Source: Siphonodentalium dalli (lineage: Eukaryota > Mollusca > Scaphopoda > Gadilida > Siphonodentaliidae). From it: a DNA stretch of 64,000 nucleotides. Shown here in pieces: positions 16,861 through 55,005 of the stretch; within the stretch, counting starts at the first letter, position 1, and each line of letters begins with the position of its first letter. The notes under the pieces are model-generated. The model worked only from the letters and a program-made list of their open reading frames with translations, did not search any database and was not told the DNA's origin. The stretch spans positions 132,565,129 through 132,629,128 of the forward strand of contig CP136064.1 in NCBI GenBank assembly GCA_032622095.1, in the 5' to 3' direction. The translations under genes were made by a program, and so were the position numbers.

Positions 16861-17074
16861 GCATCTAACAAACAAAAATACAAAATGTCAATGAAATTTG
16901 ACAATTAGTGGTTGAGATATCTGCTTGAATGGACAGACAGGTGCCCATACAGATGGATCTGGGACTGCACAAATTCTATACTGCTTCAAAAAAAAGTTTA
17001 AACAATTTCTGTACAAATTTTGTCTAGGTTAAACCTTAGTTTGATGGGACTATTGTAGCTGTTATAAAACTTAC

Positions 17075-17142
17075 CATATAACATTTTTCACAATAAGGCT
17101 TGCTTTCCATAGAGTAGAATGACTTTCCTTGGAGCATCATCC
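17075..17142 (-). CDS. LIM1 exon (second part)
   Basis: A 68-bp exon with acceptor ccttcacag and donor gtaagttt. The first two bases complete a Gly codon split by the 26.5-kb intron. It encodes MMLQGKSFYSMESK, then PYCEKCYM. It supplies the final C-x2-C pair of LIM1, 17 residues after the previous zinc ligand, as the LIM consensus requires. The upstream intron contains the entire satellite array. Family comparison: the equivalent vertebrate segment reads LRGQ-FYAVE-KAYCE-CY. Confidence 0.93.
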
Positions 17143-18254
17143 CTGTGAAGGAATGGTAGAAACTATTATTTACATAAAACATATAATAATATCATGCAGC
17201 GATTTTGACAGAGATGATCAATACAAACAGTTAAAGACCTTTCATTGTGTACCTCACTCAACAGCCAGCAACAGTTTATTCTATAATAGAATAGCAGAAT
17301 AAAACACACTCTAATTGGACACTTGCTTGGAGAGATAACAGAGCTGTTTTAATTGTGACATTCAACTCGACCTGGTGTTTTCAGCCAAATAATTAATTTT
17401 TGGTGCGAATTTAATATCCTATACATATTTGCTGATTTTGTCATTTTTTGTCTTAACTTGACATTTCAAAATGAGCTTTCACAAGGTTTATATATAAATG
17501 CATACATGTATTAATTCTAACCAATGAGACATTCCAACCGGATTTACTATTACAATATAGTAATAGTAAATAGCAATGATCAGAATCATAATCTAAGAGT
17601 TTAATGTTTATTTATAGAGTACATGTTTAGTATTATGTACTAAAGTAGTATAGACAGATGTATATAATAACACACAATTCTCAGAATGTATGGGTCCTAG
17701 TGCCAATTTGGCACTGCTGCTGATAGGCCCCCGACTTTCAGTAATTGCATTAGTGCCGATCACATACCCATGTGAACCCTTCAGCACATTTTCAAAACCT
17801 GTGTAACCTTCAGAACTTTTTTTGGTGAGAGTGACCCCCTTCAATAAAATGTTTCACACATTAGAGTGTTTTACAAGTACATGTAGCTTGGACACTAAAA
17901 TCCATAACCTTCAATATTAATCTTCTATTTATAAAAGTGCTATGTCCCCACTACAATTCAATCAGCCATAACAGTATGAACTTATTGGAAACTATGGTTC
18001 ATGGCCAGGGTTGGCGCTGGAAGAAAATTTTCTCTTGCCAATGTGTTTGACAAATGAAATAATTTTTTGGTAAATTAAAACAATATTTGCCAAATTTAAT
18101 TGCGCGAATAATTGGGGAAATTATCGTGTTTTTATCTTTGTTAAAAACTAACCACAGACATAGGTAAAATAAAAGGCCGTCCCGCCACAGTGTCCCCCGA
18201 AAAAGTGGCTTCATTTTTTCAGCTTTTCTGAACAAAATAACAAGGACCCTAAAT
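17143..18254. other. Intron sequence; nothing recognised
   Basis: AT-rich. A minor word shared with 52.3 kb (agcttggac-ctaaaatccata near 17886) hints at a decayed element. No coding evidence. Confidence 0.5.
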
Positions 18255-18732
18255 CAGAAGCAACCAGACAAAAATGGGTGGATTGTACCCATATTCGAAC
18301 TTGATCTGTATTTCGAGCTGATAAACTCATATACCAAATTTGATTCAGATATGATCACACCAACTAAAGTTATCATCAGGAAACCAGAAATTGACAAGAT
18401 TCTAAGTCGTAAAAGGGCCATAACTCTCACAAAAATGGGCAGAGCAAACCCATATTCGAACCTGACCTGTATTTTGGGTTGATAAACTATCATACTAAAT
18501 TTAATTCAGATATGATCACACAAACTAAAGTTATCAACCAGAAACCAGAAATTGACAGGATTCTAAGTCGAAAAAGGGCCATAACTCTAGCAAAAATGGG
18601 CGGATTGCACCCATATTCGAACTTGACCTGTATTTCGAGCTGATAAACGCACATACCAAATTTGGTTCAGATATGATCACGCAAACTGAAGTTCTCATCC
18701 GGAAACCAGAAAATTACAAAATTCTAAGTAAC
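18255..18732 (+). mobile_element. 'ggccataactc' family tandem units, truncated
   Basis: About three units with a 161-bp period (ggcca near 18416, ggcc at 18577). They share cccatattcgaac, aaccagaaattgaca and cagatatgatcac. It ends directly against the start of the satellite array at 18733 without its own palindromic terminus, so it appears truncated by or fused with the array element. Confidence 0.65.
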
Positions 18733-21700
18733 ATGAAAGTGTCAATGACACTGTAGCTCAACTTGGAAAGGGAATAATTTAATATATTACAGTCAATGGA
18801 GCGATTAGGAATGTGGAAAGTTGAATGTCTAATACTAGTTTATAGACATGAAGAGAAAAGTAAAATCCAAGATGGCTGCTGACGACCATGTTTTTTGGCC
18901 GATTGACCCCAAAATTACTCGTTCCCATCTACATGTCATTGTTAACATCCAAATTATATGATGATCAGACTAAAGGTACGACCTGTAGCCCGTGCTAAAG
19001 AATTTAGTCATACAAAGAGTAAAATCCAAGATGGCTGCTGGCAGCCATGTTTTTCGCCAAATGACCCCAACATTACTAGTTCCCATCTACATGTCAATAT
19101 TAACATCCATGACAAATTTCATGATGATCAGACGAACAGTACAACCTGTGGCCCGTGCTAATGGATTAAATTTTGAAATCCAAGATGGCCGCTGGCGGCC
19201 ATGTTTTTTGTCCAAATGACCCCAAAATGACTCGTTCCCATTTACATTCCAATTTCAACAGCCATGAAAATTTTTATGATGATCAGACTAAAGGTACGAC
19301 CTGCAGCCCGTGCTAAAGGATTTAGTCATACAAAGAGTAAAATCCAAGATGGCTGCTGGCGGCCATGTTTTTCGGCCAAATGACCCCAAAAGTACTCGTT
19401 CCCATCTACATGTCAATATTAATATCCATGACAAATTTCATGATGATCAGACGAACAGTACTAACTGTGGCCCGTGCTAATGGATTAAATTTTTAAATGC
19501 AAGATGGCTGCTGGCGGCCATGTTTTTTGTCCGAATGACCCCAAAATGACTCGTTCCCATCTACATTCCAATATCAACAGCCATGACAAATTTTATGATG
19601 ATCAGATTAAAGGTACGACCTGTAGCCCGTGCTAAAGGATTTAGTCATACAAATAGTAAAATCCAAGATGGCTGCTGGCGACCATGTTTTTTGGCCAAAT
19701 GACCCCAAAATTACTCGTTCCCATCTACATGTCATTGTTAACATCCATGACAAATTTTATGATGATCAGACTAAAGGTACGACCTGCAGCCCGTGCTAAA
19801 GAATTTAGTGATACAAAGAGTAAAATCCAAGATGGCTGCTGGCGACCATGTTTTTTGGCCAAATGACCCCAAAAGTACTCGTACCCATCTACATGTCAAC
19901 ATTAATATACATGACAAATTTCATGATGATCAGATGAACAGTACTAACTGTGGCCCGTGCTAATGGATTAAATTTTTAAATGCAAGATGGCTGCTGGCGG
20001 CCATGTTTTTTGTCCGAATGACCCCAAAATGACTCGTTCCCATCTACATTCCAATTTCAACAGCCATGACAAATTTTATGATGATCAGACTAAATGTACG
20101 ACCTGTAGCCCGTGCTAAAGGATTTAGTCATACAAAGAGTAAAATCCAAGATGGCTGCTGGCGACCATGTTTTTTGGCCAAATGACCCCAAAATTACTCG
20201 TTCCCATCTACATGTCATTGTTAACATCCATGACAAATTTTATGATGATCAGACTAAAGGTACGACCTGCAGCCCGTGCTAAAGAATTTAGTGATCCAAA
20301 ATGGCTGCTGGCGGCCATGTTTTTTGGCCGAATGACCCCAAAATTACTCGTTCCCATCTACATGTCAATATTATCATCCATGACAAATTTCATGATGATC
20401 AGACAAACAGTACGACCTGTGGCCTGTGCTAATGGATTAAATTTTGAAATCCAAGATGGCCGCTGGCGGCCATGTTTTTTGTCCGAATGACCCCAAAATG
20501 ACTCGTTCCCATCTACATTCCAATATCAACAGCCATGACAAATTTTATGATGATCAGATTAAAGGTACGATCTGTAGCCCGTGCTAAAGAATTTAGTGAT
20601 ACAAAGAGTAAAATCCAAGATGGCTGCTGGTGGCCATGCTTTTTGGCCGAATGACCCCGAAATTACTCGTTCCCATCTACATGTCAATATTATCATCCAT
20701 GACAAATTTCATGATGATCAGACAAACAGTACGACCTGTGGCCTGTGCCAATGGATTAAATTTTGAAATCCAAGATGGCCGCTGGCGGCCATGTTTTTTG
20801 TCCGAATGACCCCAAAATGACTCGTTCCCATCTACATTCCAATATCAACAGCCATGACAAATTTTATGATGATCAGATTAAAGGTACGACCTGTAGCCCG
20901 TGCTAAAGGATTTAGTCATACAAATAGTAAAATCTAAGATGGCTGCTGGCGGCCATGTTTTTTGGCCGAATGACCCCAAAATGACTCGTTCCCATCTACA
21001 TGTGATTATTAACATTCTTGACAAATTTTATGATGATCAGACAAAAAGTAGGACCTGTAGCCCGTGCTAAAGGATTTAGTCATGCAAAGAGTAAAATCCA
21101 AGACGGCTGCTGGCGGCCATGTTTTTGAGCCGAATGACCCCAAAATGACTCGTTCCCATCTACATGTCAATATTAACATCCATGACAAATTTCATGAAGA
21201 TCAGACGAACAGTACGACCTGTGGCCCGTGCTAATGGATTAAATTTTGAAATCCAAGATGGCCGCTGGCGGCCATGTTTTTTGTCCGAATGACCCCAAAA
21301 TGACTCGTTCCCATTTACATTCCAATTTCAACAGCCATGAAAAATTTTATGATGATCAGACTAAAGGTACGACCTGTAGCCCGTGCTAAAGGATTTAGTC
21401 ATACAAAGAGTAAAATCCAAGATGGCTGCTGGCGGCCATGTTTTTCGGCCAAATGACCCCAAAAGTACTTGTTCCCATCTACATGTCAATATTAATATCC
21501 ATGACAAATTTCATGATGATCAGACGAACAGTACTAACTGTGGCCCGTGCTAATGGATTAAATTTTTAAATGCAAGATGGCTGCTGGCGGCCATGTTTTT
21601 TGTCCGAACAACCCCAAAATGACTCGTTCCCATCTTCATTCCAATTTCAACAGCCATGACAAATTTTATGATGATCAGACTAAATGTACGACCTGTAGCC

Positions 21701-22904
21701 CGTGCTAAAGGATTTAGTCATACAAAGAGTAAAATCCAAGATGGCTGCTGGCGACCATGTTTTTTGGCCAAATGACCCCAAAATTACTCGTTCCCATCTA
21801 CATGTCATTGTTAACATCCATGACAAATTTTATGATGATCAGACTAAAGGTACGACCTGCAGCCCGTGCTAAAGAATTTAGTGATACAAAGAGTAAAATC
21901 CAAGATGGCTGCTGGCGGCCATGTTTTTTGGCCGAATGACCCCAAAATTACTCGTTCCCATCTACATGTCAATATTATCATCCATGACAAATTTCATGAT
22001 GATCAGACAAACAGTACGACCTGTGGCCTGTGCTAATGGATTAAATTTTGAAATCCAAGATGGCCGCTGGTGGCCATGTTTTTTGTCCGAATGACCCCAA
22101 AATGACTCGTTCCCATCTACATTCCAATATCAACAGCCATGACAAATTTTATGATGATCGACTAAATGTACGACCTGTAGCCCGTGCTAAAGGATTTAGT
22201 CATACAAAGAGTAAAATCCAAGATGGCTGCTGGCGACCATGTTTTTTGGCCAAATGACCCCAAAATTACTCGTTCCCATCTACATGTCATTGTTAACATC
22301 CATGACAAATTTTATGATGATCAGACTGAAGGTACGACCTGCAGCCCGTGCTAAAGAATTTAGTGATACAAAGAGTAAAATCCAAGATGGCTGCTGGCGA
22401 CCATGTTTTTTGGCCAAATGACCCCAAAAGTACTCGTACCCATCTACATGTCAATATTAATATCCATGACAAATTTCATGATGATCAGACGAACAGTACT
22501 AACTGTGGCCCGTGCTAATGGATTAAATTTTTAAATGCAAGATGGCTGCTGGCGGCCATGTTTTTTGTCCGAATGACCCCAAAATGACTCGTTCCCATCT
22601 ACATTCCAATTTCAACAGCCATGACAATTTTTATGATGATCAGACTAAATGTAAGACCTGTAGCCCGTGCTAAAGGATTTAGTCATACAAAGAGTAAAAT
22701 CCAAGATGGCTGCTGGCGACCATGTTTTTTGGCCAAATGACCCCAAAATTTCTCGTTCCCATCTACATGTCATTGTTAACATCCATGACAAATTTTATGA
22801 TGATCAGACTAAAGGTACGACCTGTAGCCCGTGCTAAAGAATTTAGTGATACAAAGAGTAAAATCCAAGATGGCTGCTGGCGGCCATGCTTTTTGGCCGA
22901 ATGA

Positions 22905-25900
22905 CCCCGAAATTACTCGTTCCCATCTACATGTCAATATTATCATCCATGACAAATTTCATGATGATCAGACAAACAGTACGACCTGTGGCCTGTGCTA
23001 ATGGATTAAATTTTGAAATCCAAGATGGCCGGCCATGTTTTTTGTCCGAATGACCCCAAAATGACTCGTTCCCATCTACATTCCAATATCAACAGCCATG
23101 ACAAATTTTATGATGATCAGATTAAAGGTACGACCTGTAGCCCGTGCTAAAGGATTTAGTCATACAAATAGTAAAATCCAAGATGGCTGCTGGCGGCCAT
23201 GTATTTTGGCCGAATGACCCCAAAATGAATCGTTCCCATCTACATGTGATTATTAACATTCTTGACAAATTTTATGATGATCAGACAAAAAGTAGGACCT
23301 GTAGCCCGTGCTAAAGGATTTAGTCATGCAAAGAGTAAAATCCAAGACGGCTGCTGGCGGCCATGTTTTTGAGCCGAATGACCCCAAAATGACTCGTTCC
23401 CATCTACATGTCAATATTAACATCCATGACAAATTTCATGATGATCAGACGAACAGTACGACCTGTGGCCCGTGCTAATGGATTAAATTTTGAAATCCAA
23501 GATGGCCGCTGGCGGCCATGTTTTTTGTCCGAATGACCCCAAAATGACTCGTTCCCATTTACATTCCAATTTCAACAGCCATGAAAAATTTTATGATGAT
23601 CAGACTAAAGGTACGACCTGTAGCCCGTGCTAAAGGATTTAGTCATACAAAGAGTAAAATCCAAGATGGCTGCTGGCGGCCATGTTTTTCGGCCAAATGA
23701 CCCCAAAAGTACTCGTTCCCATCTACATGTCAATATTAATATCCATGACAAATTTCATGATGATCAGACGAACAGTACTAACTGTGGCCCGTGCTAATGG
23801 ATTAAATTTTTAAATGCAAGATGGCTGCTGGCGGCCATGTTTTTTGTCCGAATGACCCCAAAATGACTCGTTCCCATCTACATTCCAATTTCAACAGCCA
23901 TGACAAATTTTATGATGATCAGACTAAATGTACGACCTGTAGCCCGTGCTAAAGGATTTAGTCCTACAAAGAGTAAAATCCAAGATGGCTGCTGGCGCCC
24001 ATGTTTTTTGGCCAAATGACCCCAAAATTACTCGTTCCCATCTACATGTCATTGTTAACATCCATGACAAATTTCATGAAGATCAGACGAACAGTACGAC
24101 CTGTGGCCCGTGCTAATGGATTAAATTTTGAAATCCAAGATGGCCGCTGGCGGCCATGTTTTCTGTCCGAATGACCCCAAAATGACTCGTTCCCATTTAC
24201 ATTCCAATTTCAACAGCCATGAAAAATTTTATGATGATCAGACTAAAGGTACGACCTGTAGCCCGTGCTAAAGGATTTAGTCATACAAAGAGTAAAATCC
24301 AAGATGGCTGCTGGCGGCCATGTTTTTCGGCCAAATGACCCCAAAAGTACTCGTTCCCATCTACATGTCAATATTAATATCCATGACAAATTTCATGATG
24401 ATCAGACGAACAGTACTAACTGTGGCCCGTGCTAATGGATTAAATTTTTAAATGCAAGATGGCTGCTGGCGGCCATGTTTTTTGTCCGAATGACCCCAAA
24501 ATGACTCGTTCCCATCTACATTCCAATTTCAACAGCCATGACAAATTTTATGATGATCAGACTAAATGTACGATCTGTAGCCCGTGCTAAAGGATTTAGT
24601 CCTACAAAGAGTAAAATCCAAGATGGCTGCTGGCGACCATGTTTTTTGGCCAAATGACCCCAAAATTACTCGTTCCCATCTACATGTCAATATTATCATC
24701 CATGACAAATTTCATGATGATCAGACAAACAGTACGACCTGTGGCCTGTGCTAATGGATTAAATTTTGAAATCCAAGATGGCCGCTGGCGGCCATGTTTT
24801 TTGTCCGAATGACCCCAAAATGACTCGTTCCCATCTACATTCCAATATCAACAGCCATGACAAATTTTATGATGATCGACTAAATGTACGACCTGTAGCC
24901 CGTGCTAAAGGATTTAGTCATACAAAGAGTAAAATCCAAGATGGCTGCTGGCGACCATGTTTTTTGGCCAAATGACCCCAAAAGTACTCGTACCCATCTA
25001 CATGTCAATATTAATATCCATGACAAATTTCATGATGATCAGACGAACAGTACTAACTGTGGCCCGTGCTAATGGATTAAATTTTTAAATGCAAGATGGC
25101 TGCTGGCGGCCATGTTTTTTGTCCGAATGACCCCAAAATGACTCGTTCCCATCTACATTCCAATTTCAACAGCCATGACAATTTTTATGATGATCAGACT
25201 AAATGTAAGACCTGTAGCCCGTGCTAAAGGATTTAGTCATACAAAGAGTAAAATCCAAGATGGCTGCTGGCGACCATGTTTTTTGGCCAAATGACCCCAA
25301 AATTTCTCGTTCCCATCTACATGTCATTGTTAACATCCATGACAAATTTTATGATGATCAGACTAAAGGTACGACCTGCAGCCCGTGCTAAAGAATTTAG
25401 TGATACAAAGAGTAAAATCCAAGATGGCTGCTGGCGGCCATGCTTTTTGGCCGAATGACCCCGAAATTACTCGTTCCCATCTACATGTCAATATTATCAT
25501 CCATGACAAATTTCATGATGATCAGACAAACAGTACGACCTGTGGCCTGTGCTAATGGATTAAATTTTGAAATCCAAGATGGCCGGCCATGTTTTTTGTC
25601 CGAATGACCCCAAAATGACTCGTTCCCATCTACATTCCAATATCAACAGCCATGACAAATTTTATGATGATCAGATTAAAGGTACGACCTGTAGCCCGTG
25701 CTAAAGGATTTAGTCATACAAATAGTAAAATCCAAGATGGCTGCTGGCGGCCATGTATTTTGGCCGAATGACCCCAAAATGAATCGTTCCCATCTACATG
25801 TGATTATTAACATTCTTGACAAATTTTATGATGATCAGACAAAAAGTAGGACCTGTAGCCCGTGCTAAAGGATTTAGTCATGCAAAGAGTAAAATCCAAG

Positions 25901-28021
25901 ACGGCTGCTGGCGGCCATGTTTTTGAGCCGAATGACCCCAAAATGACTCGTTCCCATCTACATGTCAATATTAACATCCATGACAAATTTCATGATGATC
26001 AGACGAACAGTACGACCTGTGGCCCGTGCTAATGGATTAAATTTTGAAATCCAAGATGGCCGCTGGCGGCCATGTTTTTTGTCCGAATGACCCCAAAATG
26101 ACTCGTTCCCATTTACATTCCAATTTCAACAGCCATGAAAAATTTTATGATGATCAGACTAAAGGTACGACCTGTAGCCCGTGCTAAAGGATTTAGTCAT
26201 ACAAAGAGTAAAATCCAAGATGGCTGCTGGCGGCCATGTTTTTCGGCCAAATGACCCCAAAAGTACTCGTTCCCATCTACATGTCAATATTAATATCCAT
26301 GACAAATTTCATGATGATCAGACGAACAGTACTAACTGTGGCCCGTGCTAATGGATTAAATTTTTAAATGCAAGATGGCTGCTGGCGGCCATGTTTTTTG
26401 TCCGAATGACCCCAAAATGACTCGTTCCCATCTACATTCCAATTTCAACAGCCATGACAAATTTTATGATGATCAGACTAAATGTACGACCTGTAGCCCG
26501 TGCTAAAGGATTTAGTCCTACAAAGAGTAAAATCCAAGATGGCTGCTGGCGACCATGTTTTTTGGCCAAATGACCCCAAAATTACTCGTTCCCATCTACA
26601 TGTCATTGTTAACATCCATGACAAATTTCATGAAGATCAGACGAACAGTACGACCTGTGGCCTGTGCTAATGGATTAAATTTTGAAATCCAAGATGGCCG
26701 CTGGCGGCCATGTTTTTTGTCCGAATGACCCCAAAATGACTCGTTCCCATCTACATTCCAATATCAACAGCCATGACAAATTTTATGATGATCGACTAAA
26801 TGTACGACCTGTAGCCCGTGCTAAAGGATTTAGTGATACAAAGAGTAAAATCCAAGATGGCTGCTGGCGACCATGTTTTTTGGCCAAATGACCCCAAAAT
26901 TACTCGTTCCCATCTACATGTCATTGTTAACATCCATGACAAATTTTATGATGATCAGACTGAAGGTACGACCTGCAGCCCGTGCTAAAGAATTTAGTGA
27001 TACAAAGAGTAAAATCCAAGATGGCTGCTGGCGACCATGTTTTTTGGCCAAATGACCCCAAAAGTACTCGTACCCATCTACATGTCAATATTAATATCCA
27101 TGACAAATTTCATGATGATCAGACGAACAGTACTAACTGTGGCCCGTGCTAATGGATTAAATTTTTAAATGCAAGATGGCTGCTGGCGGCCATGTTTTTT
27201 GTCCGAATGACCCCAAAATGACTCGTTCCCATCTACATTCCAATTTCAACAGCCATGACAATTTTTATGATGATCAGACTAAATGTAAGACCTGTAGCCC
27301 GTGCTAAAGGATTTAGTCATACAAAGAGTAAAATCCAAGATGGCTGCTGGCGACCATGTTTTTTGGCCAAATGACCCCAAAATTTCTCGTTCCCATCTAC
27401 ATGTCATTGTTAACATCCATGACAAATTTTATGATGATCAGACTGAAGGTACGACCTGCAGCCCGTGCTAAAGAATTTAGTGATACAAAGAGTAAAATCC
27501 AAGATGGCTGCTGGCGACCATGTTTTTTGGCCAAATGACCCCAAAAGTACTCGTACCCATCTACATGTCAATATTAATATCCATGACAAATTTCATGATG
27601 ATCAGACGAACAGTACTAACTGTGGCCCGTGCTAATGGATTAAATTTTTAAATGCAAGATGGCTGCTGGCGGCCATGTTTTTTGTCCGAATGACCCCAAA
27701 ATGACTCGTTCCCATCTACATTCCAATTTCAACAGCCATGACAATTTTTATGATGATCAGACTAAATGTAAGACCTGTAGCCCGTGCTAAAGGATTTAGT
27801 CATACAAAGAGTAAAATCCAAGATGGCTGCTGGCGACCATGTTTTTTGGCCAAATGACCCCAAAATTTCTCGTTCCCATCTACATGTCATTGTTAACATC
27901 CATGACAAATTTTATGATGATCAGACTAAAGGTACGACCTGTAGCCCGTGCTAAAGAATTTAGTGATACAAAGAGTAAAATCCAAGATGGCTGCTGGCGG
28001 CCATGCTTTTTGGCCGAATGA
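22905..28021 (+). repeat. Higher-order unit U1 (5117 bp)
   Basis: Bounded by the variant ccatgctttttggccgaatg at each end. It consists of two similar halves of 2554 and 2563 bp (division at 25458), each opening with ccccgaaattactcg, then the shortened monomer gatggccggccatg, the gccatgtattttggccg variant and the gacggctgctgg variant. The private variant gttttctgtccg lies at about 24159. Confidence 0.9.
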
Positions 28022-31000
28022 CCCCGAAATTACTCGTTCCCATCTACATGTCAATATTATCATCCATGACAAATTTCATGATGATCAGACAAACAGTACG
28101 ACCTGTGGCCTGTGCTAATGGATTAAATTTTGAAATCCAAGATGGCCGGCCATGTTTTTTGTCCGAATGACCCCAAAATGACTCGTTCCCATCTACATTC
28201 CAATATCAACAGCCATGACAAATTTTATGATGATCAGATTAAAGGTACGACCTGTAGCCCGTGCTAAAGGATTTAGTCATACAAATAGTAAAATCCAAGA
28301 TGGCTGCTGGCGGCCATGTATTTTGGCCGAATGACCCCAAAATGAATCGTTCCCATCTACATGTGATTATTAACATTCTTGACAAATTTTATGATGATCA
28401 GACAAAAAGTAGGACCTGTAGCCCGTGCTAAAGGATTTAGTCATGCAAAGAGTAAAATCCAAGACGGCTGCTGGCGGCCATGTTTTTGAGCCGAATGACC
28501 CCAAAATGACTCGTTCCCATCTACATGTCAATATTAACATCCATGACAAATTTCATGATGATCAGACGAACAGTACGACCTGTGGCCCGTGCTAATGGAT
28601 TAAATTTTGAAATCCAAGATGGCCGCTGGCGGCCATGTTTTTTGTCCGAATGACCCCAAAATGACTCGTTCCCATTTACATTCCAATTTCAACAGCCATG
28701 AAAAATTTTATGATGATCAGACTAAAGGTACGACCTGTAGCCCGTGCTAAAGGATTTAGTCATACAAAGAGTAAAATCCAAGATGGCTGCTGGCGGCCAT
28801 GTTTTTCGGCCAAATGACCCCAAAAGTACTCGTTCCCATCTACATGTCAATATTAATATCCATGACAAATTTCATGATGATCAGACGAACAGTACTAACT
28901 GTGGCCCGTGCTAATGGATTAAATTTTTAAATGCAAGATGGCTGCTGGCGGCCATGTTTTTTGTCCGAATGACCCCAAAATGACTCGTTCCCATCTACAT
29001 TCCAATTTCAACAGCCATGACAAATTTTATGATGATCAGACTAAATGTACGACCTGTAGCCCGTGCTAAAGGATTTAGTCCTACAAAGAGTAAAATCCAA
29101 GATGGCTGCTGGCGCCCATGTTTTTTGGCCAAATGACCCCAAAATTACTCGTTCCCATCTACATGTCATTGTTAACATCCATGACAAATTTCATGAAGAT
29201 CAGACGAACAGTACGACCTGTGGCCCGTGCTAATGGATTAAATTTTGAAATCCAAGATGGCCGCTGGCGGCCATGTTTTCTGTCCGAATGACCCCAAAAT
29301 GACTCGTTCCCATTTACATTCCAATTTCAACAGCCATGAAAAATTTTATGATGATCAGACTAAAGGTACGACCTGTAGCCCGTGCTAAAGGATTTAGTCA
29401 TACAAAGAGTAAAATCCAAGATGGCTGCTGGCGGCCATGTTTTTCGGCCAAATGACCCCAAAAGTACTCGTTCCCATCTACATGTCAATATTAATATCCA
29501 TGACAAATTTCATGATGATCAGACGAACAGTACTAACTGTGGCCCGTGCTAATGGATTAAATTTTTAAATGCAAGATGGCTGCTGGCGGCCATGTTTTTT
29601 GTCCGAATGACCCCAAAATGACTCGTTCCCATCTACATTCCAATTTCAACAGCCATGACAAATTTTATGATGATCAGACTAAATGTACGATCTGTAGCCC
29701 GTGCTAAAGGATTTAGTCCTACAAAGAGTAAAATCCAAGATGGCTGCTGGCGACCATGTTTTTTGGCCAAATGACCCCAAAATTACTCGTTCCCATCTAC
29801 ATGTCAATATTATCATCCATGACAAATTTCATGATGATCAGACAAACAGTACGACCTGTGGCCTGTGCTAATGGATTAAATTTTGAAATCCAAGATGGCC
29901 GCTGGCGGCCATGTTTTTTGTCCGAATGACCCCAAAATGACTCGTTCCCATCTACATTCCAATATCAACAGCCATGACAAATTTTATGATGATCGACTAA
30001 ATGTACGACCTGTAGCCCGTGCTAAAGGATTTAGTCATACAAAGAGTAAAATCCAAGATGGCTGCTGGCGACCATGTTTTTTGGCCAAATGACCCCAAAA
30101 GTACTCGTACCCATCTACATGTCAATATTAATATCCATGACAAATTTCATGATGATCAGACGAACAGTACTAACTGTGGCCCGTGCTAATGGATTAAATT
30201 TTTAAATGCAAGATGGCTGCTGGCGGCCATGTTTTTTGTCCGAATGACCCCAAAATGACTCGTTCCCATCTACATTCCAATTTCAACAGCCATGACAATT
30301 TTTATGATGATCAGACTAAATGTAAGACCTGTAGCCCGTGCTAAAGGATTTAGTCATACAAAGAGTAAAATCCAAGATGGCTGCTGGCGACCATGTTTTT
30401 TGGCCAAATGACCCCAAAATTTCTCGTTCCCATCTACATGTCATTGTTAACATCCATGACAAATTTTATGATGATCAGACTAAAGGTACGACCTGCAGCC
30501 CGTGCTAAAGAATTTAGTGATACAAAGAGTAAAATCCAAGATGGCTGCTGGCGGCCATGCTTTTTGGCCGAATGACCCCGAAATTACTCGTTCCCATCTA
30601 CATGTCAATATTATCATCCATGACAAATTTCATGATGATCAGACAAACAGTACGACCTGTGGCCTGTGCTAATGGATTAAATTTTGAAATCCAAGATGGC
30701 CGGCCATGTTTTTTGTCCGAATGACCCCAAAATGACTCGTTCCCATCTACATTCCAATATCAACAGCCATGACAAATTTTATGATGATCAGATTAAAGGT
30801 ACGACCTGTAGCCCGTGCTAAAGGATTTAGTCATACAAATAGTAAAATCCAAGATGGCTGCTGGCGGCCATGTATTTTGGCCGAATGACCCCAAAATGAA
30901 TCGTTCCCATCTACATGTGATTATTAACATTCTTGACAAATTTTATGATGATCAGACAAAAAGTAGGACCTGTAGCCCGTGCTAAAGGATTTAGTCATGC

Positions 31001-33138
31001 AAAGAGTAAAATCCAAGACGGCTGCTGGCGGCCATGTTTTTGAGCCGAATGACCCCAAAATGACTCGTTCCCATCTACATGTCAATATTAACATCCATGA
31101 CAAATTTCATGATGATCAGACGAACAGTACGACCTGTGGCCCGTGCTAATGGATTAAATTTTGAAATCCAAGATGGCCGCTGGCGGCCATGTTTTTTGTC
31201 CGAATGACCCCAAAATGACTCGTTCCCATTTACATTCCAATTTCAACAGCCATGAAAAATTTTATGATGATCAGACTAAAGGTACGACCTGTAGCCCGTG
31301 CTAAAGGATTTAGTCATACAAAGAGTAAAATCCAAGATGGCTGCTGGCGGCCATGTTTTTCGGCCAAATGACCCCAAAAGTACTCGTTCCCATCTACATG
31401 TCAATATTAATATCCATGACAAATTTCATGATGATCAGACGAACAGTACTAACTGTGGCCCGTGCTAATGGATTAAATTTTTAAATGCAAGATGGCTGCT
31501 GGCGGCCATGTTTTTTGTCCGAATGACCCCAAAATGACTCGTTCCCATCTACATTCCAATTTCAACAGCCATGACAAATTTTATGATGATCAGACTAAAT
31601 GTACGACCTGTAGCCCGTGCTAAAGGATTTAGTCCTACAAAGAGTAAAATCCAAGATGGCTGCTGGCGACCATGTTTTTTGGCCAAATGACCCCAAAATT
31701 ACTCGTTCCCATCTACATGTCATTGTTAACATCCATGACAAATTTCATGAAGATCAGACGAACAGTACGACCTGTGGCCTGTGCTAATGGATTAAATTTT
31801 GAAATCCAAGATGGCCGCTGGCGGCCATGTTTTTTGTCCGAATGACCCCAAAATGACTCGTTCCCATCTACATTCCAATATCAACAGCCATGACAAATTT
31901 TATGATGATCGACTAAATGTACGACCTGTAGCCCGTGCTAAAGGATTTAGTGATACAAAGAGTAAAATCCAAGATGGCTGCTGGCGACCATGTTTTTTGG
32001 CCAAATGACCCCAAAATTACTCGTTCCCATCTACATGTCATTGTTAACATCCATGACAAATTTTATGATGATCAGACTGAAGGTACGACCTGCAGCCCGT
32101 GCTAAAGAATTTAGTGATACAAAGAGTAAAATCCAAGATGGCTGCTGGCGACCATGTTTTTTGGCCAAATGACCCCAAAAGTACTCGTACCCATCTACAT
32201 GTCAATATTAATATCCATGACAAATTTCATGATGATCAGACGAACAGTACTAACTGTGGCCCGTGCTAATGGATTAAATTTTTAAATGCAAGATGGCTGC
32301 TGGCGGCCATGTTTTTTGTCCGAATGACCCCAAAATGACTCGTTCCCATCTACATTCCAATTTCAACAGCCATGACAATTTTTATGATGATCAGACTAAA
32401 TGTAAGACCTGTAGCCCGTGCTAAAGGATTTAGTCATACAAAGAGTAAAATCCAAGATGGCTGCTGGCGACCATGTTTTTTGGCCAAATGACCCCAAAAT
32501 TTCTCGTTCCCATCTACATGTCATTGTTAACATCCATGACAAATTTTATGATGATCAGACTGAAGGTACGACCTGCAGCCCGTGCTAAAGAATTTAGTGA
32601 TACAAAGAGTAAAATCCAAGATGGCTGCTGGCGACCATGTTTTTTGGCCAAATGACCCCAAAAGTACTCGTACCCATCTACATGTCAATATTAATATCCA
32701 TGACAAATTTCATGATGATCAGACGAACAGTACTAACTGTGGCCCGTGCTAATGGATTAAATTTTTAAATGCAAGATGGCTGCTGGCGGCCATGTTTTTT
32801 GTCCGAATGACCCCAAAATGACTCGTTCCCATCTACATTCCAATTTCAACAGCCATGACAATTTTTATGATGATCAGACTAAATGTAAGACCTGTAGCCC
32901 GTGCTAAAGGATTTAGTCATACAAAGAGTAAAATCCAAGATGGCTGCTGGCGACCATGTTTTTTGGCCAAATGACCCCAAAATTTCTCGTTCCCATCTAC
33001 ATGTCATTGTTAACATCCATGACAAATTTTATGATGATCAGACTAAAGGTACGACCTGCAGCCCGTGCTAAAGAATTTAGTGATACAAAGAGTAAAATCC
33101 AAGATGGCTGCTGGCGGCCATGCTTTTTGGCCGAATGA
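28022..33138 (+). repeat. Higher-order unit U2 (5117 bp)
   Basis: The same length and variant order as U1; half-unit lengths are again 2554 and 2563 bp. The private variant gttttctgtccg recurs exactly 5117 bp after its U1 position. Differences from U1 are rare by eye. Confidence 0.9.
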
Positions 33139-36100
33139 CCCCGAAATTACTCGTTCCCATCTACATGTCAATATTATCATCCATGACAAATTTCATGATG
33201 ATCAGACAAACAGTACGACCTGTGGCCTGTGCTAATGGATTAAATTTTGAAATCCAAGATGACCGGCCATGTTTTTTGTCCGAATGACCCCAAAATGACT
33301 CGTTCCCATCTACATTCCAATATCAACAGCCATGACAAATTTTATGATGATCAGATTAAAGGTACGACCTGTAGCCCGTGCTAAAGGATTTAGTCATACA
33401 AATAGTAAAATCCAAGATGGCTGCTGGCGGCCATGTATTTTGGCCGAATGACCCCAAAATGAATCGTTCCCATCTACATGTGATTATTAACATTCTTGAC
33501 AAATTTTATGATGATCAGACAAAAAGTAGGACCTGTAGCCCGTGCTAAAGGATTTAGTCATGCAAAGAGTAAAATCCAAGACGGCTGCTGGCGGCCATGT
33601 TTTTGAGCCGAATGACCCCAAAATGACTCGTTCCCATCTACATGTCAATATTAACATCCATGACAAATTTCATGATGATCAGACGAACAGTACGACCTGT
33701 GGCCCGTGCTAATGGATTAAATTTTGAAATCCAAGATGGCCGCTGGCGGCCATGTTTTTTGTCCGAATGACCCCAAAATGACTCGTTCCCATTTACATTC
33801 CAATTTCAACAGCCATGAAAAATTTTATGATGATCAGACTAAAGGTACGACCTGTAGCCCGTGCTAAAGGATTTAGTCATACAAAGAGTAAAATCCAAGA
33901 TGGCTGCTGGCGGCCATGTTTTTCGGCCAAATGACCCCAAAAGTACTCGTTCCCATCTACATGTCAATATTAATATCCATGACAAATTTCATGATGATCA
34001 GACGAACAGTACTAACTGTGGCCCGTGCTAATGGATTAAATTTTTAAATGCAAGATGGCTGCTGGCGGCCATGTTTTTTGTCCGAATGACCCCAAAATGA
34101 CTCGTTCCCATCTACATTCCAATTTCAACAGCCATGACAAATTTTATGATGATCAGACTAAATGTACGACCTGTAGCCCGTGCTAAAGGATTTAGTCCTA
34201 CAAAGAGTAAAATCCAAGATGGCTGCTGGCGCCCATGTTTTTTGGCCAAATGACCCCAAAATTACTCGTTCCCATCTACATGTCATTGTTAACATCCATG
34301 ACAAATTTCATGAAGATCAGACGAACAGTACGACCTGTGGCCCGTGCTAATGGATTAAATTTTGAAATCCAAGATGGCCGCTGGCGGCCATGTTTTCTGT
34401 CCGAATGACCCCAAAATGACTCGTTCCCATTTACATTCCAATTTCAACAGCCATGAAAAATTTTATGATGATCAGACTAAAGGTACGACCTGTAGCCCGT
34501 GCTAAAGGATTTAGTCATACAAAGAGTAAAATCCAAGATGGCTGCTGGCGGCCATGTTTTTCGGCCAAATGACCCCAAAAGTACTCGTTCCCATCTACAT
34601 GTCAATATTAATATCCATGACAAATTTCATGATGATCAGACGAACAGTACTAACTGTGGCCCGTGCTAATGGATTAAATTTTTAAATGCAAGATGGCTGC
34701 TGGCGGCCATGTTTTTTGTCCGAATGACCCCAAAATGACTCGTTCCCATCTACATTCCAATTTCAACAGCCATGACAAATTTTATGATGATCAGACTAAA
34801 TGTACGATCTGTAGCCCGTGCTAAAGGATTTAGTCCTACAAAGAGTAAAATCCAAGATGGCTGCTGGCGACCATGTTTTTTGGCCAAATGACCCCAAAAT
34901 TACTCGTTCCCATCTACATGTCAATATTATCATCCATGACAAATTTCATGATGATCAGACAAACAGTACGACCTGTGGCCTGTGCTAATGGATTAAATTT
35001 TGAAATCCAAGATGGCCGCTGGCGGCCATGTTTTTTGTCCGAATGACCCCAAAATGACTCGTTCCCATCTACATTCCAATATCAACAGCCATGACAAATT
35101 TTATGATGATCGACTAAATGTACGACCTGTAGCCCGTGCTAAAGGATTTAGTCATACAAAGAGTAAAATCCAAGATGGCTGCTGGCGACCATGTTTTTTG
35201 GCCAAATGACCCCAAAATTACTCGTTCCCATCTACATGTCATTGTTAACATCCATGACAAATTTTATGATGATCAGACTGAAGGTACGACCTGCAGCCCG
35301 TGCTAAAGAATTTAGTGATACAAAGAGTAAAATCCAAGATGGCTGCTGGCGACCATGTTTTTTGGCCAAATGACCCCAAAAGTACTCGTACCCATCTACA
35401 TGTCAATATTAATATCCATGACAAATTTCATGATGATCAGACGAACAGTACTAACTGTGGCCCGTGCTAATGGATTAAATTTTTAAATGCAAGATGGCTG
35501 CTGGCGGCCATGTTTTTTGTCCGAATGACCCCAAAATGACTCGTTCCCATCTACATTCCAATTTCAACAGCCATGACAATTTTTATGATGATCAGACTAA
35601 ATGTAAGACCTGTAGCCCGTGCTAAAGGATTTAGTCATACAAAGAGTAAAATCCAAGATGGCTGCTGGCGACCATGTTTTTTGGCCAAATGACCCCAAAA
35701 TTTCTCGTTCCCATCTACATGTCATTGTTAACATCCATGACAAATTTTATGATGATCAGACTAAAGGTACGACCTGCAGCCCGTGCTAAAGAATTTAGTG
35801 ATACAAAGAGTAAAATCCAAGATGGCTGCTGGCGGCCATGCTTTTTGGCCGAATGACCCCGAAATTACTCGTTCCCATCTACATGTCAATATTATCATCC
35901 ATGACAAATTTCATGATGATCAGACAAACAGTACGACCTGTGGCCTGTGCTAATGGATTAAATTTTGAAATCCAAGATGGCCGGCCATGTTTTTTGTCCG
36001 AATGACCCCAAAATGACTCGTTCCCATCTACATTCCAATATCAACAGCCATGACAAATTTTATGATGATCAGATTAAAGGTACGACCTGTAGCCCGTGCT

Positions 36101-37936
36101 AAAGGATTTAGTCATACAAATAGTAAAATCCAAGATGGCTGCTGGCGGCCATGTATTTTGGCCGAATGACCCCAAAATGAATCGTTCCCATCTACATGTG
36201 ATTATTAACATTCTTGACAAATTTTATGATGATCAGACAAAAAGTAGGACCTGTAGCCCGTGCTAAAGGATTTAGTCATGCAAAGAGTAAAATCCAAGAC
36301 GGCTGCTGGCGGCCATGTTTTTGAGCCGAATGACCCCAAAATGACTCGTTCCCATCTACATGTCAATATTAACATCCATGACAAATTTCATGATGATCAG
36401 ACGAACAGTACGACCTGTGGCCCGTGCTAATGGATTAAATTTTGAAATCCAAGATGGCCGCTGGCGGCCATGTTTTTTGTCCGAATGACCCCAAAATGAC
36501 TCGTTCCCATTTACATTCCAATTTCAACAGCCATGAAAATTTTTATGATGATCAGACTAAAGGTACGACCTGTAGCCCGTGCTAAAGGATTTAGTCATAC
36601 AAAGAGTAAAATCCAAGATGGCTGCTGGCGGCCATGTTTTTCGGCCAAATGACCCCAAAAGTACTCGTTCCCATCTACATGTCAATATTAATATCCATGA
36701 CAAATTTCATGATGATCAGACGAACAGTACTAACTGTGGCCCGTGCTAATGGATTAAATTTTTAAATGCAAGATGGCTGCTGGCGGCCATGTTTTTTGTC
36801 CGAATGACCCCAAAATGACTCGTTCCCATCTACATTCCAATTTCAACAGCCATGACAAATTTTATGATGATCAGACTAAATGTACGACCTGTAGCCCGTG
36901 CTAAAGGATTTAGTCCTACAAAGAGTAAAATCCAAGATGGCTGCTGGCGACCATGTTTTTTGGCCAAATGACCCCAAAATTACTCGTTCCCATCTACATG
37001 TCATTGTTAACATCCATGACAAATTTCATGAAGATCAGACGAACAGTACGACCTGTGGCCTGTGCTAATGGATTAAATTTTGAAATCCAAGATGGCCGCT
37101 GGCGGCCATGTTTTTTGTCCGAATGACCCCAAAATGACTCGTTCCCATCTACATTCCAATATCAACAGCCATGACAAATTTTATGATGATCGACTAAATG
37201 TACGACCTGTAGCCCGTGCTAAAGGATTTAGTGATACAAAGAGTAAAATCCAAGATGGCTGCTGGCGACCATGTTTTTTGGCCAAATGACCCCAAAATTA
37301 CTCGTTCCCATCTACATGTCATTGTTAACATCCATGACAAATTTTATGATGATCAGACTGAAGGTACGACCTGCAGCCCGTGCTAAAGAATTTAGTGATA
37401 CAAAGAGTAAAATCCAAGATGGCTGCTGGCGACCATGTTTTTTGGCCAAATGACCCCAAAAGTACTCGTACCCATCTACATGTCAATATTAATATCCATG
37501 ACAAATTTCATGATGATCAGACGAACAGTACTAACTGTGGCCCGTGCTAATGGATTAAATTTTTAAATGCAAGATGGCTGCTGGCGGCCATGTTTTTTGT
37601 CCGAATGACCCCAAAATGACTCGTTCCCATCTACATTCCAATTTCAACAGCCATGACAATTTTTATGATGATCAGACTAAATGTAAGACCTGTAGCCCGT
37701 GCTAAAGGATTTAGTCATACAAAGAGTAAAATCCAAGATGGCTGCTGGCGACCATGTTTTTTGGCCAAATGACCCCAAAATTTCTCGTTCCCATCTACAT
37801 GTCATTGTTAACATCCATGACAAATTTTATGATGATCAGACTAAAGGTACGACCTGCAGCCCGTGCTAAAGAATTTAGTGATACAAAGAGTAAAATCCAA
37901 GATGGCTGCTGGCGGCCATGCTTTTTGGCCGAATGA
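33139..37936 (+). repeat. Higher-order unit U3 (4798 bp, one monomer gained and one trimer lost)
   Basis: It opens like U1 and U2 with one base change (gatgaccggccatg). Relative to them it gains one 164-bp monomer near 35200 and lacks a 483-bp trimer near its end: 5117 + 164 - 483 = 4798, the observed length. This is the signature expected of unequal exchange in register with monomers and trimers. Confidence 0.85.
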
Positions 37937-39534
37937 CCCCGAAATTACTCGTTCCCATCTACATGTCAATATTATCATCCATGACAAATTTCATGATGAT
38001 CAGACAAACAGTACGACCTGTGGCCTGTGCTAATGGATTAAATTTTGAAATCCAAGATGGCCGGCCATGTTTTTTGTCCGAATGAACCCAAAATGACTCG
38101 TTCCCATCTACATTCCAATATCAACAGCCAAGACAAATTTTATGATGATCAGATTAAAGGTACGACCTGTAGCCCGTGCTAAAGGATTTAGTCATACAAA
38201 TAGTAAAATCCAAGATGGCTGCTGGCGGCCATGTATTTTGGCCGAATGACCCCAAAATGAATCGTTCCCATCTACATGTGATTATTAACATTCTTGACAA
38301 ATTTTATGATGATCAGACAAAAAGTAGGACCTGTAGCCCGTGCTAAAGGATTTAGTCATGCAAAGAGTAAAATCCAAGACGGCTGCTGGCGGCCATGTTT
38401 TTGAGCCGAATGACCCCAAAATGACTCGTTCCCATCTACATGTCAATATTAACATCCATGACAAATTTCATGATGATCAGACGAACAGTACGACCTGTGG
38501 CCCGTGCTAATGGATTAAATTTTGAAATCCAAGATGGCCACTGGCGGCCATGTTTTTTGTCCGAATGACCCCAAAATGACTCGTTCCCATTTACATTCCA
38601 ATTTCAACACCCATGAAAAATTTTATGATGATCAGACTAAAGGTACGACCTGTAGCCTGTGCTAAAGGATTTAGTCATACAAAGAGTAAAATCCAAGATG
38701 GCTGCTGGCGGCCATGTTTTTCGGCCAAATGACCCCAAAAGTACTCGTTCCCATCTACATGTCAATATTAATATCCATGACAAATTTCATGATGATCAGA
38801 CGAACAGTACTAACTGTGGCCCGTGCTAATGGATTAAATTTTTAAATGCAAGATGGCTGCTAGCGGCCATGTTTTTTGTCCGAATGACCCCAAAATGACT
38901 CGTTCCCATCTACATTCCAATTTCAACAGCCATGACAAATTTTATGATGATCAGACTAAATGTACGACCTGTAGCCCGTGCTAAAGGATTTAGTCATACA
39001 AAGAGTAAAATCCAAGATGGCTGCTGGCGCCCATGTTTTTTGGCCAAATGACCCCAAAATTACTCGTTCCCATCTACATGTCATTGTTAACATCCATGAC
39101 AAATTTCATGATGATCAGACGAACAGTACTAACTGTGGCCCGTGCTAATGGATTAAATTTTTAAATGCAAGATGGCTGCTGGCGGCCATGTTTTTTGTCC
39201 GAATGACCCCAAAATGACTCGTTCCCATCTACATTCCAATTTCAACAGCCATGACAATTTTTATGATGATCAGACTAAATGTAAGACCTGTAGCCCGTGC
39301 TAAAGGATTTAGTCATTCAAAGAGTAAAATCCAAGATGGCTGCTGGCGACCATGTTTTTTGGCCAAATGACCCCAAAATTACTCGTTCCCATCTACATGT
39401 CATTGTTAACATCCATGACAAATTTTATGATGATCAGACTAAAGGTACGACCTGCAGCCCGTGCTAAAGAATTTAGTGATACAAAGAGTAAAATCCAAGA
39501 TGGCTGCTGGCGGCCATGCTTTTTGGCCGAATGA

Positions 39535-42500
39535 CCCCGAAATTACTCGTTCCCATCTACATGTCAATATTATCATCCATGACAAATTTCATGATGATCA
39601 GACAAACAGTACAACCTGTGGCCTGTGCTAATGGATTAAATTTTGAAATCCAAGATGGCCGGCCATGTTTTTTGTCCGAATGACCCCAAAATGACTCGTT
39701 CCCATCTACATTCCAATATCAACAGCCATGACAAATTTTATGATGATCAGATTAAAGGTACGACCTGTAGCCCGTGCTAAAGGATTTAGTCATACAAATA
39801 GATAGTAAAATCCAAGATGGCTGCTGGCGGCCATGTTTTATGGCCGAATGACCCCAAAATGACTCGTTCCCATCTACATGTGATTATTAACATTCTTGAC
39901 AAATTTTATGATGATCAGACAAAAAGTAGGAACTGTAGCCCGTGCTAAAGGATTTAGTCATGCAAAGAGTAAAATCCAAGACGGCTGCTGGCGGCCATGT
40001 TTTTGAGCCGAATGACCCCAAAATGACTCGTTCCCATCTACAAGTCAATATTAACATCCATGACAAATTTCATGATGATCAGACGAACAGTACGACCTGT
40101 GGCCCGTGCTAATGGATTAAATTTTGAAATCCAAGATGGCCGCTGGTGGCCATGTTTTTTGTCCGAATGACCCCAAAATGACTCGTTCCCATTTACATTC
40201 CAATTTCAACAGCCATGAAAAATTTTATGATGATCAGACTAAAGGTACGACCTGTAGCCCGTGCTAAAGGATTTAGTCATACAAAGAGTAAAATCCAAGA
40301 TGGCTGCTGGCGGCCATGTTTTTCGGCCAAATGACCCCAAAAGTACTCGTTCCCATCTACATGTCAATATTAATATCCATGACAAATTTCATGATGATCA
40401 GACGAACAGTACTAACTGTGGCCCGTGCTAATGGATTAAATTTTGAAATCCAAGATGGCCGCTGGCGGCCATGTTTTTTGTCCGAATAACCCCAAAATGA
40501 CTCGTTCCCATCTACATTCCAATATCAACAGCCATGACAAATTTTATGATGATCGACTAAATGTACGACCTGTAGCCCGTGCTAAAGGATTTAGTCATAC
40601 AAAGAGTAAAATCCAAGATGGCTGCTGGCGACCATGTTTTTTGGCCAAATGACCCCAAAATTACTCGTTCCCATCTACATGTCATTGTTAACATCCATGA
40701 CAAATTTTATGATGATCAGACTAAAGGTACGACCTGCAGCCCGTGCTAAAGAATTTAGTGATACAAAGAGTAAAATCCAAGATGGCTGCTGGCGACCATG
40801 TTTTTTGGCCAAATGACCCCAAAAGTACTCGTACCCATCTACATGTCAATATTAATATCCATGACAAATTTCATGATGATCAGACAAACAGTACGACCTG
40901 TGGCCTTTGCTAATGGATTAAATTTTGAAATCCAAGATGGCTGCTGGCGGCCATGTTTTTTGTCCGAATGACCCCAAAATGACTCGTTCCCATCTACATT
41001 CCAATTTCAACAGCCATGACAAATTTTATGATGATCAGATTAAAGGTACGACCTGTAGCCCGTGCTAAAGGATTTAGTCATACAAATAGTAAAATCCAAG
41101 ATGGCCACTGACGGCCATGTTTTTTGTCCCAATGACCCCAAAATGACTCGTTCCCATCTACATGTGATTATTAACATTCTTGACAAATTTTATGATGATC
41201 AGACAAAAAGTAGGACCTGTAGCCCGTGCTAAAGGATTTAGTCATGCAAAGAGTAAAATCCAAGACGGCTGCTGGCGGCCATGTTTTTTGGCCGAATGAC
41301 CCCAAAATGACTCGTTCCCATCTACATGTCATTGTTAACATCCATGACAAATTTCATGATGATCAGACGAACAGTACTAACTGTGGCCCGTGCTAATGGA
41401 TTAAATTTTTAAATGCAAGATGGCTGCTGGCGGCCATGTTTTTTGTCCGAATGACCCCAAAATGACTCGTTCCCATCTACATTCCAATTTCAACAGCCAT
41501 GACAATTTTTATGCTGATCAGACTAAATGTAAGACCTGTAGCCCGTGCTAAAGGATTTAGTCATTCAAAGAGTAAAATCCAAGATGGCTGCTGGCGACCA
41601 TGTTTTTTGGCCAAATGACCCCAAAATTACTCGTTCCCATCTACATGTCATTGTTAACATCCATGACAAATTTTATGATGATCAGACTAAAGGTACGACC
41701 TGCAGCCCGTGCTAAAGAATTTAGTGATACAAAGAGTAAAATCCAAGATGGCTGCTGGCGGCCATGCTTTTTGGCCGAATGACCCCGAAATTACTCGTTC
41801 CCATCTACATGTCAATATTATCATCCATGACAAATTTCATGATGATCAGACAAACAGTACAACCTGTGGCCTGTGCTAATGGATTAAATTTTGAAATCCA
41901 AGATGGCCGGCCATGTTTTTTGTCCGAATGACCCCAAAATGACTCGTTCCCATCTACATTCCAATATCAACAGCCATGACAAATTTTATGATGATCAGAT
42001 TAAAGGTACGACCTGTAGCCCGTGCTAAAGGATTTAGTCATACAAATAGTAAAATCCAAGATGGCTGCTGGCGGCCATGTTTTATGGCCGAATGACCCCA
42101 AAATGACTCGTTCCCATCTACATGTGATTATTAACATTCTTGACAAATTTTATGATGATCAGACAAAAAGTAGGAACTGTAGCCCGTGCTAAAGGATTTA
42201 GTCATGCAAAGAGTAAAATCCAAGACGGCTGCTGGCGGCCATGTTTTTGAGCCGAATGACCCCAAAATGACTCGTTCCCATCTACAAGTCAATATTAACA
42301 TCCATGACAAATTTCATGATGATCAGACGAACAGTACGACCTGTGGCCCGTGCTAATGGATTAAATTTTGAAATCCAAGATGGCCGCTGGCGGCCATGTT
42401 TTTTGTCCGAATGACCCCAAAATGACTCGTTCCCATTTACATTCCAATTTCAACAGCCATGAAAATTTTTATGATGATCAGACTAAAGGTACGACCTGTA

Positions 42501-43609
42501 GCCCGTGCTAAAGGATTTAGTCATACAAAGAGTAAAATCCAAGATGGCTGCTGGCGGCCATGTTTTTCGGCCAAATGACCCCAAAAGTACTCGTTCCCAT
42601 CTACATGTCAATATTAATATCCATGACAAATTTCATGATGATCAGACGAACAGTACTAACTGTGGCCCGTGCTAATGGATTAAATTTTGAAATCCAAGAT
42701 GGCCGCTGGCGGCCATGTTTTTTGTCTGAATAACCCCAAAATGACTCGTTCCCATCTACATTCCAATATCAACAGCCATGACAAATTTTATGATGATCGA
42801 CTAAATGTACGACCTGTAGCCCGTGCTAAAGGATTTAGTCATACAAAGAGTAAAATCCAAGATGGCTGCTGGCGACCATGTTTTTTGGCCAAATGACCCC
42901 AAAATTACTCGTTCCCATCTACATGTCATTGTTAACATCCATGACAAATTTTATGATGATCAGACTAAAGGTACGACCTGCAGCCCGTGCTAAAGAATTT
43001 AGTGATACAAAGAGTAAAATCCAAGATGGCTGCTGGCGACCATGTTTTTTGGCCAAATGACCCCAAAAGTACTCGTACCCATCTACATGTCAATATTAAT
43101 ATCCATGACAAATTTCATGATGATCAGACAAACAGTACGACCTGTGGCCTTTGCTAATGGATTAAATTTTGAAATCCAAGATGGCTGCTGGCGGCCATGT
43201 TTTTTGTCCGAATGACCCCAAAATGACTCGTTCCCATCTACATTCCAATTTCAACAGCCATGACAAATTTTATGATGATCAGATTAAAGGTACGACCTGT
43301 AGCCCGTGCTAAAGGATTTAGTCATACAAATAGTAAAATCCAAGATGGCCACTGGCGGCCATGTTTTTTGTCCCAATGACCCCAAAATGACTCGTTCCCA
43401 TCTACATGTGATTATTAACATTCTTGACAAATTTTATGATGATCAGACAAAAAGTAGGACCTGTAGCCCGTGCTAAAGGATTTAGTCATGCAAAGAGTAA
43501 AATCCAAGACGGCTGCTGGCGGCCATGTTTTTTGGCCGAATGACCCCAAAATGACTCGTTCCCATCTACATGTCATTGTTAAAATCCATGACAAATTTTA
43601 TGATGATCT
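39535..43609 (+). repeat. 2.25-kb tandem duplication at the array end (second copy incomplete)
   Basis: Features at 39352, 40443 and 40634 recur at 41600, 42687 and 42878 (offsets 2248, 2244, 2244). The first copy is 39535-41782; the second runs from 41783 to the array edge. It carries variants not seen in U1-U3, such as gtccgaataaccccaaaatg and the ggcctttgctaatgg word. Confidence 0.85.
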
Positions 43610-43645
43610 GTAAGAAATGATCAATATCTAAGATTAATCACTCAC

Positions 43646-43747
43646 CACAGTTGATGCAAGTGAAGCAGTTAATATGGTAAACTTTATCCAGTGCAGTGCA
43701 TCCGTTCACTTCTCCTATCACCTTTGTCTCACAAATATCGCACATTC
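43646..43747 (-). CDS. LIM1 exon (first part), flanked on both sides by repeat elements
   Basis: A 102-bp exon with acceptor ttattttag and donor G|gtgagtga. Joined to the split G from 55006 it reads FGMCDICETKVIGEV, then NGCTALDKVYHINCFTCINC. It holds C-x2-C, 18 residues, H-x2-C, C and C of LIM1. The GCTALDKV motif matches GCTAMDxV of zyxin-family LIM1 (family knowledge). The donor lies 36 bp from the edge of the 24.9-kb array and the acceptor about 120 bp from the start of a dispersed element at 43870. It is therefore an island of single-copy sequence of about 260 bp. The codons look intact, with no stop or frameshift. Confidence 0.93.
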
Positions 43748-45350: not shown

Positions 45351-45393
45351 ATGGATGAACTAAGAAACCATAAATCAGGACAGCCACAAAAAA

Positions 45394-45644: not shown

Positions 45645-45650
45645 CATTGG

Positions 45651-54925: not shown

Positions 54926-55005
54926 ACAGACAAATAAACACACTGTCAATTGAAACTAAAAATCACCCCATTTTTTAAGTCTCCAATTGTAATTAATATA
55001 CTAAC

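Follow-up and report, generated by a model that had tools for sequence, protein, structure and literature searches.

Primate alpha satellite consists of divergent monomers of ~160-170 bp arranged in multi-monomer units, and the copies of such a unit are nearly identical. Tandem repeats also form the center of non-autonomous elements of the Helentron type (HINEs), whose plan, as set out in the passages of PMC7492417 and PMC4067079 used here, comprises a subterminal inverted repeat, a microsatellite, a 3' palindrome, and central repeats. In the oyster Crassostrea gigas, Cg_HINE carries central repeats of 140-180 bp and is present as thousands of dispersed arrays (PMC7492417), and the Helitron-associated satellite DNA CgiSat01 forms arrays associated with an element that reach 89 monomers as well as a standalone array of up to 232 monomers, ~40 kb in length and containing an assembly gap (PMC8268682). 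The passages of PMC8268682 used here describe no nested order for CgiSat01, at least under the hyphenated spelling 'higher-order'. In Drosophila, the DINE-TR1 satellites consist of ~150-bp Helentron central repeats in arrays reaching ~82.6 kb (~540 copies) (PMC9957191).

We describe here a locus of the scaphopod Siphonodentalium dalli contained in a stretch of 64,000 nucleotides, the window, to which positions refer unless another contig is named. The element at this locus and Cg_HINE have the non-autonomous Helentron plan in common, although the longest Cg_HINE array given in PMC7492417 has 29.3 monomers and the window copy has ~155 in nested order, and the microsatellite, which is on the left side in Cg_HINE, is on the 3' side in the present element (PMC7492417).

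The intronic array and its higher-order units

Judging from its LIM motifs and an upstream ORF, the host gene is zyxin/LPP-like, a family name that we presume to be the right one, as we do the likeness of the Ser/Pro-rich N-terminal ORF. Zyxin is a focal-adhesion protein. The order of its parts fits the zyxin/LPP plan of a Ser/Pro-rich N-terminus followed by LIM domains, in that the ORF is followed by LIM exons at 43.7, 17.1, and 1.8 kb. The gene was recognized by its LIM motifs; Pfam searches of 25 single ORFs outside the array identified a LINE endonuclease and a reverse transcriptase together with a few hits that fell short of the curated thresholds. The N-terminal ORF matched no Pfam family, and the exon at 17074-17142 has no PF00412 match of its own. 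Within the Ser/Pro-rich region of the minus-strand coding ORF, a 30-bp tandem repeat (55227-55365, 4.6 copies) encodes an HRSTSPS-like decapeptide repeat. The splice sites and LIM exons bear out the claim of an earlier note on this DNA that a nested higher-order repeat lies within one intron (Table 1). We would expect no function of the array, except that the size of the intron might influence how the gene is expressed or spliced.

Table 1. Features of the locus, with positions in the window
Feature	Position	Strand	Basis and remarks
Later LIM exon of host gene	1779..1940	-	PF00412, E 2.4e-6
Exon, second half of LIM domain 1 (MMLQGKSFYSMESKPYCEKCYM)	17074..17142	-	Splice site and joining phase; lower end approximate
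Predicted intron within first LIM domain	17143..43645	-	26,503 bp; donor GTGAGT 43645-43640; acceptor before exon base 17142; predicted from splice sites and phase
161-bp tandem repeat, insertion target of the element	18269..18732	+	Sequence; flank reconstruction
HINE: 5' end and ~155 tandem monomers, 3' end missing	18734..43608	+	~25 kb; 94% of intron
Unique 5' end of HINE	18734..18863	+	Palindrome GTGTCAATGACAC, subterminal repeat TAGCTCAACTT
Array 5' edge, less homogenized	18864..22268	+	Exact twin for 7/22 monomers
Higher-order unit 1	22905..28021	+	5117 bp (2554 + 2563); 1 mismatch to unit 2
Higher-order unit 2	28022..33138	+	5117 bp
Higher-order unit 3	33139..37936	+	4798 bp (2718 + 2080; +164, -483); monomer string, offset 5281
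Array 3' edge	37938..43608	+	Exact twin for 19/35 monomers; ends 37 bp from splice donor
Exon, first half of LIM domain 1 (...CDICETKVIGEVNGCTALDKVYHINCFTCINC)	43646..43747	-	PF00412, E 4.7e-4
ORF with Ser/Pro-rich N-terminal region, ending ...SAGDPDYFG	55004..55732	-	Sequence

The array, whose bounds of 18733-43609 in the earlier note are corrected here to 18734-43608, is made up of ~155 assembled monomers, mostly of 164 and 155 bp, and the 59 different monomer sequences in it are on average 86% identical. The strongest autocorrelation period of 18733-43609 is 5117 bp (68%). A 483-bp trimer level had been proposed beneath it and is present (57%), although a 319-bp dimer is the stronger sub-period (65%). 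Alignment confirms the 5117-bp offset: over 22269-30100 (7832 bp) there are two mismatches, at 27942 and 28145, only one of which separates unit 1 from unit 2 over their 5117 bp, and near-exact periodicity thus extends across 22269-35217. The exact register that had been claimed for all three units holds over that interval but not in the remainder of unit 3, which runs one monomer out of step, at offset 5281 with a single mismatch over 2525 bp. A landmark, GTTTTCTGTCCG, recurs every 5117 bp as had been noted, and its three occurrences in the window begin at 24158, 29275, and 34392, one base from the positions first given.

Calling monomer types at 97.5% identity yields a string in which type M appears once per half, with starts at 22932, 25486, 28049, 30603, 33166, 35884, and 37964. 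The spacings are 2554, 2563, 2554, 2563, 2718, and 2080 bp and sum to 5117, 5117, and 4798 bp, so that both the three consecutive unit lengths and the division into halves of 2554 and 2563 bp stand as originally read. Units 1 and 2 have the same string (ERPSMNCDEIT-DEIKQ / ERPSMNCDEIT-QGERG), and that of unit 3 (ERPSMNCDEIT-DEIKQG / ERPSMNCDEIT-QG) agrees with the changes of +164 and -483 bp attributed to it. Each half has ~16 monomers as proposed, although the common variant order applies to the first 11 of the 16 types and not to the remaining five. At an offset of 32 monomers, 35 identical monomers follow one another, the longest such run at any single offset, compared with maxima of 4 when monomer order was shuffled 200 times and 10 when 200 shuffles were made within types; the order is far beyond what chance produces. 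The higher-order unit comprises 32 monomers, divergent from one another inside the unit, and its copies are near-identical, the organization that defines a higher-order satellite. Exact twins exist for 97 of the 98 monomers starting in 22269-37937 compared with the lower proportions at the two edges (Table 1), a distribution expected if exchange homogenizes the center of the array.

The element and its copies in the genome

The interpretation in the earlier note is supported in part, its omission being that the window array is, by the features of its sequence, the core of one Helentron-type non-autonomous element and no free-standing satellite. A HINE origin largely accounts for the presence of a satellite-like array in an intron. 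We sampled dispersed copies at 11 of the 19 places listed at ≥97% identity for a 501-bp piece of the array, excluding the window array and a second contig considered below, and all 11 represent one element, with a 5' end that includes GTGTCAATGACAC, a monomer core, a microsatellite rich in CA, and a hairpin at the 3' end. The first 130 bp of the window element match seven of these copies without mismatch and the other four with one mismatch, and the cores have 11-18 monomers in all 11, counting the first 264-bp segment. An 11-bp subterminal inverted repeat links the two ends (TAGCTCAACTT on the 5' side and the complement on the 3' side, in copy L006), and the 3' palindrome is present in all 11 copies (by fold in L006) as well as in the second contig. 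The element thus has the hallmarks of HINEs: subterminal inverted repeats, a 3' palindrome, a microsatellite with central tandem repeats, and no target-site duplication. In all 11 copies the 5' end is preceded by A, and the 3' end is followed by T in seven and by A in four, so that the flanking bases read AT or AA (TT on the opposite strand).

We counted 4968 exact matches to the 39-base 5' end in the genome (2438 + 2530) and none to its reversed control; the 501-bp piece of the array has matches on all nine contigs among the best 40 of 3958 candidates. At 13 of 100 listed 39-mer places (every eighth, all within the first 61.6 Mb of C1), a 3' end lies within 5 kb of the 5' end in every case, at distances of 0.9 to 4.3 kb, and 12 of the 13 (the exception being L029) have tandem repeats of the monomer period in ~6-15 copies per element. 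Ordinary copies of the element therefore have ~6-18 monomers, against the ~155 of the window. Elements also lie head to tail, 57 bp apart, at one of these 13 places, L031 (101-4201), and at C1:28904665-28920077 three 5' ends (28908765, 28914402, and 28920039) are spaced exactly 5637 bp apart; both are possibly tandem copies of whole elements. Helitron_like_N has at least 151 matches in the genome, several of which sit in open frames of 1,600 to 2,864 amino acids, and these frames suggest that intact autonomous Helitrons or Helentrons may persist. The single autonomous Helentron-like locus examined has no ends in common with this element, which counts against the account favored below.

A genome search with 22932-25002 (best 29 of 8625 candidates, the window itself not being among the matches listed) identified at least six other long arrays, and we examined five. 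All five strings, read here without a shuffle control, contain recurring blocks of monomer types, and two arrays have a strong multi-monomer offset (L023, 93% at 1768; L021, 84% at 2397, equaling its 319-bp dimer); in the remaining three the best offset is that of the monomer or dimer (59-64%) and longer offsets reach 57-60%. Exact-match termini are present at both ends of L021 and L022 and at the 5' end of L023, and in neither of the other two pieces. The higher-order periods in other copies indicate that such order is not private to the window locus. Tentatively, and with more doubt than confidence, we raise the broader idea that among thousands of near-identical Helentron copies, each with a small tandem array, higher-order repeats arise anew and independently in many, including copies in genes, and faster than haplotypes diverge; if this were so, the genome would constitute a replicated natural experiment on the birth of higher-order satellites outside centromeres.

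Relatives of the element and other repeats are found elsewhere in the window. A tandem repeat family of another type (147-161 bp) is present at 9886-10296, 12345-12787, and 18287-18729, the last being the insertion target. Just upstream of the first LIM exon, 43870-45352 is a diverged relative of the element, with 84% identity over 100 bp at its 5' end and 89% over 82 bp at its 3' end, and a further copy, ~90% identical to the 5' part, is cut by the window end (62822-64000). The 5' end (45393) and 3' end (near 53422) of another element flank LINE frames for an endonuclease (48782-50242) and a reverse transcriptase (50143-50865), an arrangement suggestive of LINE insertion into a HINE.

A second assembled copy and the history of the locus

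A second contig, C4:131301174-131333010, is 31,837 bp long and lies 1.29 Mb from the window between 100-N gaps; it starts partway through an array and stops partway through the 55-kb exon. Aligned to window positions 43604-55591, it is 99.34% identical (12,017 aligned positions with 37 mismatches and 10 gap openings). Its array is at least 17.8 kb long with 109 monomers, 17 of which are exact in the window, and it retains the element 3' end followed by ~2 kb of intron that is missing from the window. The offset 5117 is outside its 20 strongest, which do include 802 and 1285; the question raised in the earlier note, whether the array varies between chromosomes, is thus answered in part by an assembled copy of the locus that lacks the 5117-bp unit. 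Joining the window 5' flank to the 3' flank of the second contig reconstructs an empty site that aligns without gaps to the neighboring 161-bp unit (90% over 209 bp), which argues for a single insertion without target-site duplication. Comparison of the two contigs also shows a 5-bp microhomology, TGATC, at the 3' junction of the window array.

The second contig is probably the other haplotype of the locus. A true duplicated gene fragment would explain its placement elsewhere on the same chromosome, but we consider this unlikely in view of a 31,837-bp contig that sits between 100-N gaps, starts in the array, and stops inside an exon, past whose break the window alone, among the best 40 of 1721 candidates, gives a full match. 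Gene duplication is disfavored by that gap-bounded end. If the contigs are alleles, the 5117-bp unit is probably younger than their split, because the units (2 mismatches in 7832 bp) are ~12 times less diverged than the contigs (37 in 12,017; Fisher p 1.4e-6), although gene conversion or polishing could also have lowered the divergence between units. Turnover of array order inside an intron is suggested to outpace change in the flanking sequence.

The exactness of the units invites the explanation that the assembly copied or mis-joined a shorter array, and the second contig, stopping within its own array at a gap, does mark the region as hard to assemble. The window, however, contains no N, its units are distinguished by entire monomers and by single-base changes at sensible places, and higher-order periods of other lengths occur in other copies of the element, so we regard an artefact as quite improbable. 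Rolling-circle read-through, which would join whole elements head to tail, has a parallel in L031, where three 5' ends have two 3' ends between them, but neither a second 5' end nor any 3' end or 3' palindrome was found inside the window array. The absence of termini from the interior indicates that growth was confined to the element core; it rules out whole-element multimers as the repeat unit, and read-through, already disfavored, is very improbable. The array lies between exons at 132.6 of 299 Mb, a position compatible with pericentromeric DNA, and its nested order and monomer size are like those of alpha satellite; a functional satellite (e.g. centromeric or regulatory) maintained by selection is nevertheless highly unlikely given that the repeats are on all nine contigs in thousands of elements and that their order differs in the other copy of the locus.

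We therefore favor, with a probability of roughly 85%, an account in which insertion of a HINE was followed by expansion of its core through block duplication, by a 3' deletion, and by formation of the 5117-bp order after the haplotypes had split. That a HINE whose center was a row of 155/164-bp repeats entered the 161-bp repeat in the zyxin/LPP-like intron without target-site duplication is shown by its 5' end, its repeats, and the flank reconstruction. Its core would then have grown from perhaps 6-18 to ~155 monomers by repeated tandem duplication of blocks within the array, with monomers and trimers followed by a 16-monomer block and then by the 32-monomer block of 5117 bp, with unequal exchange or a similar homology-driven process as the likely agent. 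To judge from the second contig, a later microhomology deletion would have removed the element 3' end and ~2 kb of intron here, and the 5117-bp order would have formed after haplotype separation provided that the second contig is an allele. The array could already have been long before insertion, since the evidence dates the 5117-bp unit only.

Comparison with known systems

Growth of a Helentron core into a satellite is already known from oysters and Drosophila, and we do not claim higher-order repeats in HINE arrays as unpublished, since PMC12692304 uses the term 'higher order repeat' once; the window provides a clear intronic example with nested order and a probable allele. CgiSat01 resembles the window array in that central repeats of an element also form long arrays, a likeness drawn from their description (PMC8268682), and the locus fits the model, discussed in the same source, that growing arrays lose mobility and gain recombination. 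The DINE-TR1 satellites exhibit the same growth from core to satellite in an unrelated lineage, again as judged from their description (PMC9957191).

What this locus offers is a link between a higher-order satellite and its source transposon: one end of the element survives, a probable second haplotype allows comparison, and sister copies represent other stages of growth. The likeness to alpha satellite drawn in the earlier note is sound for organization but does not go beyond it: in contrast to the primate arrays, the window has about three units, confined to one intron and of transposon origin.
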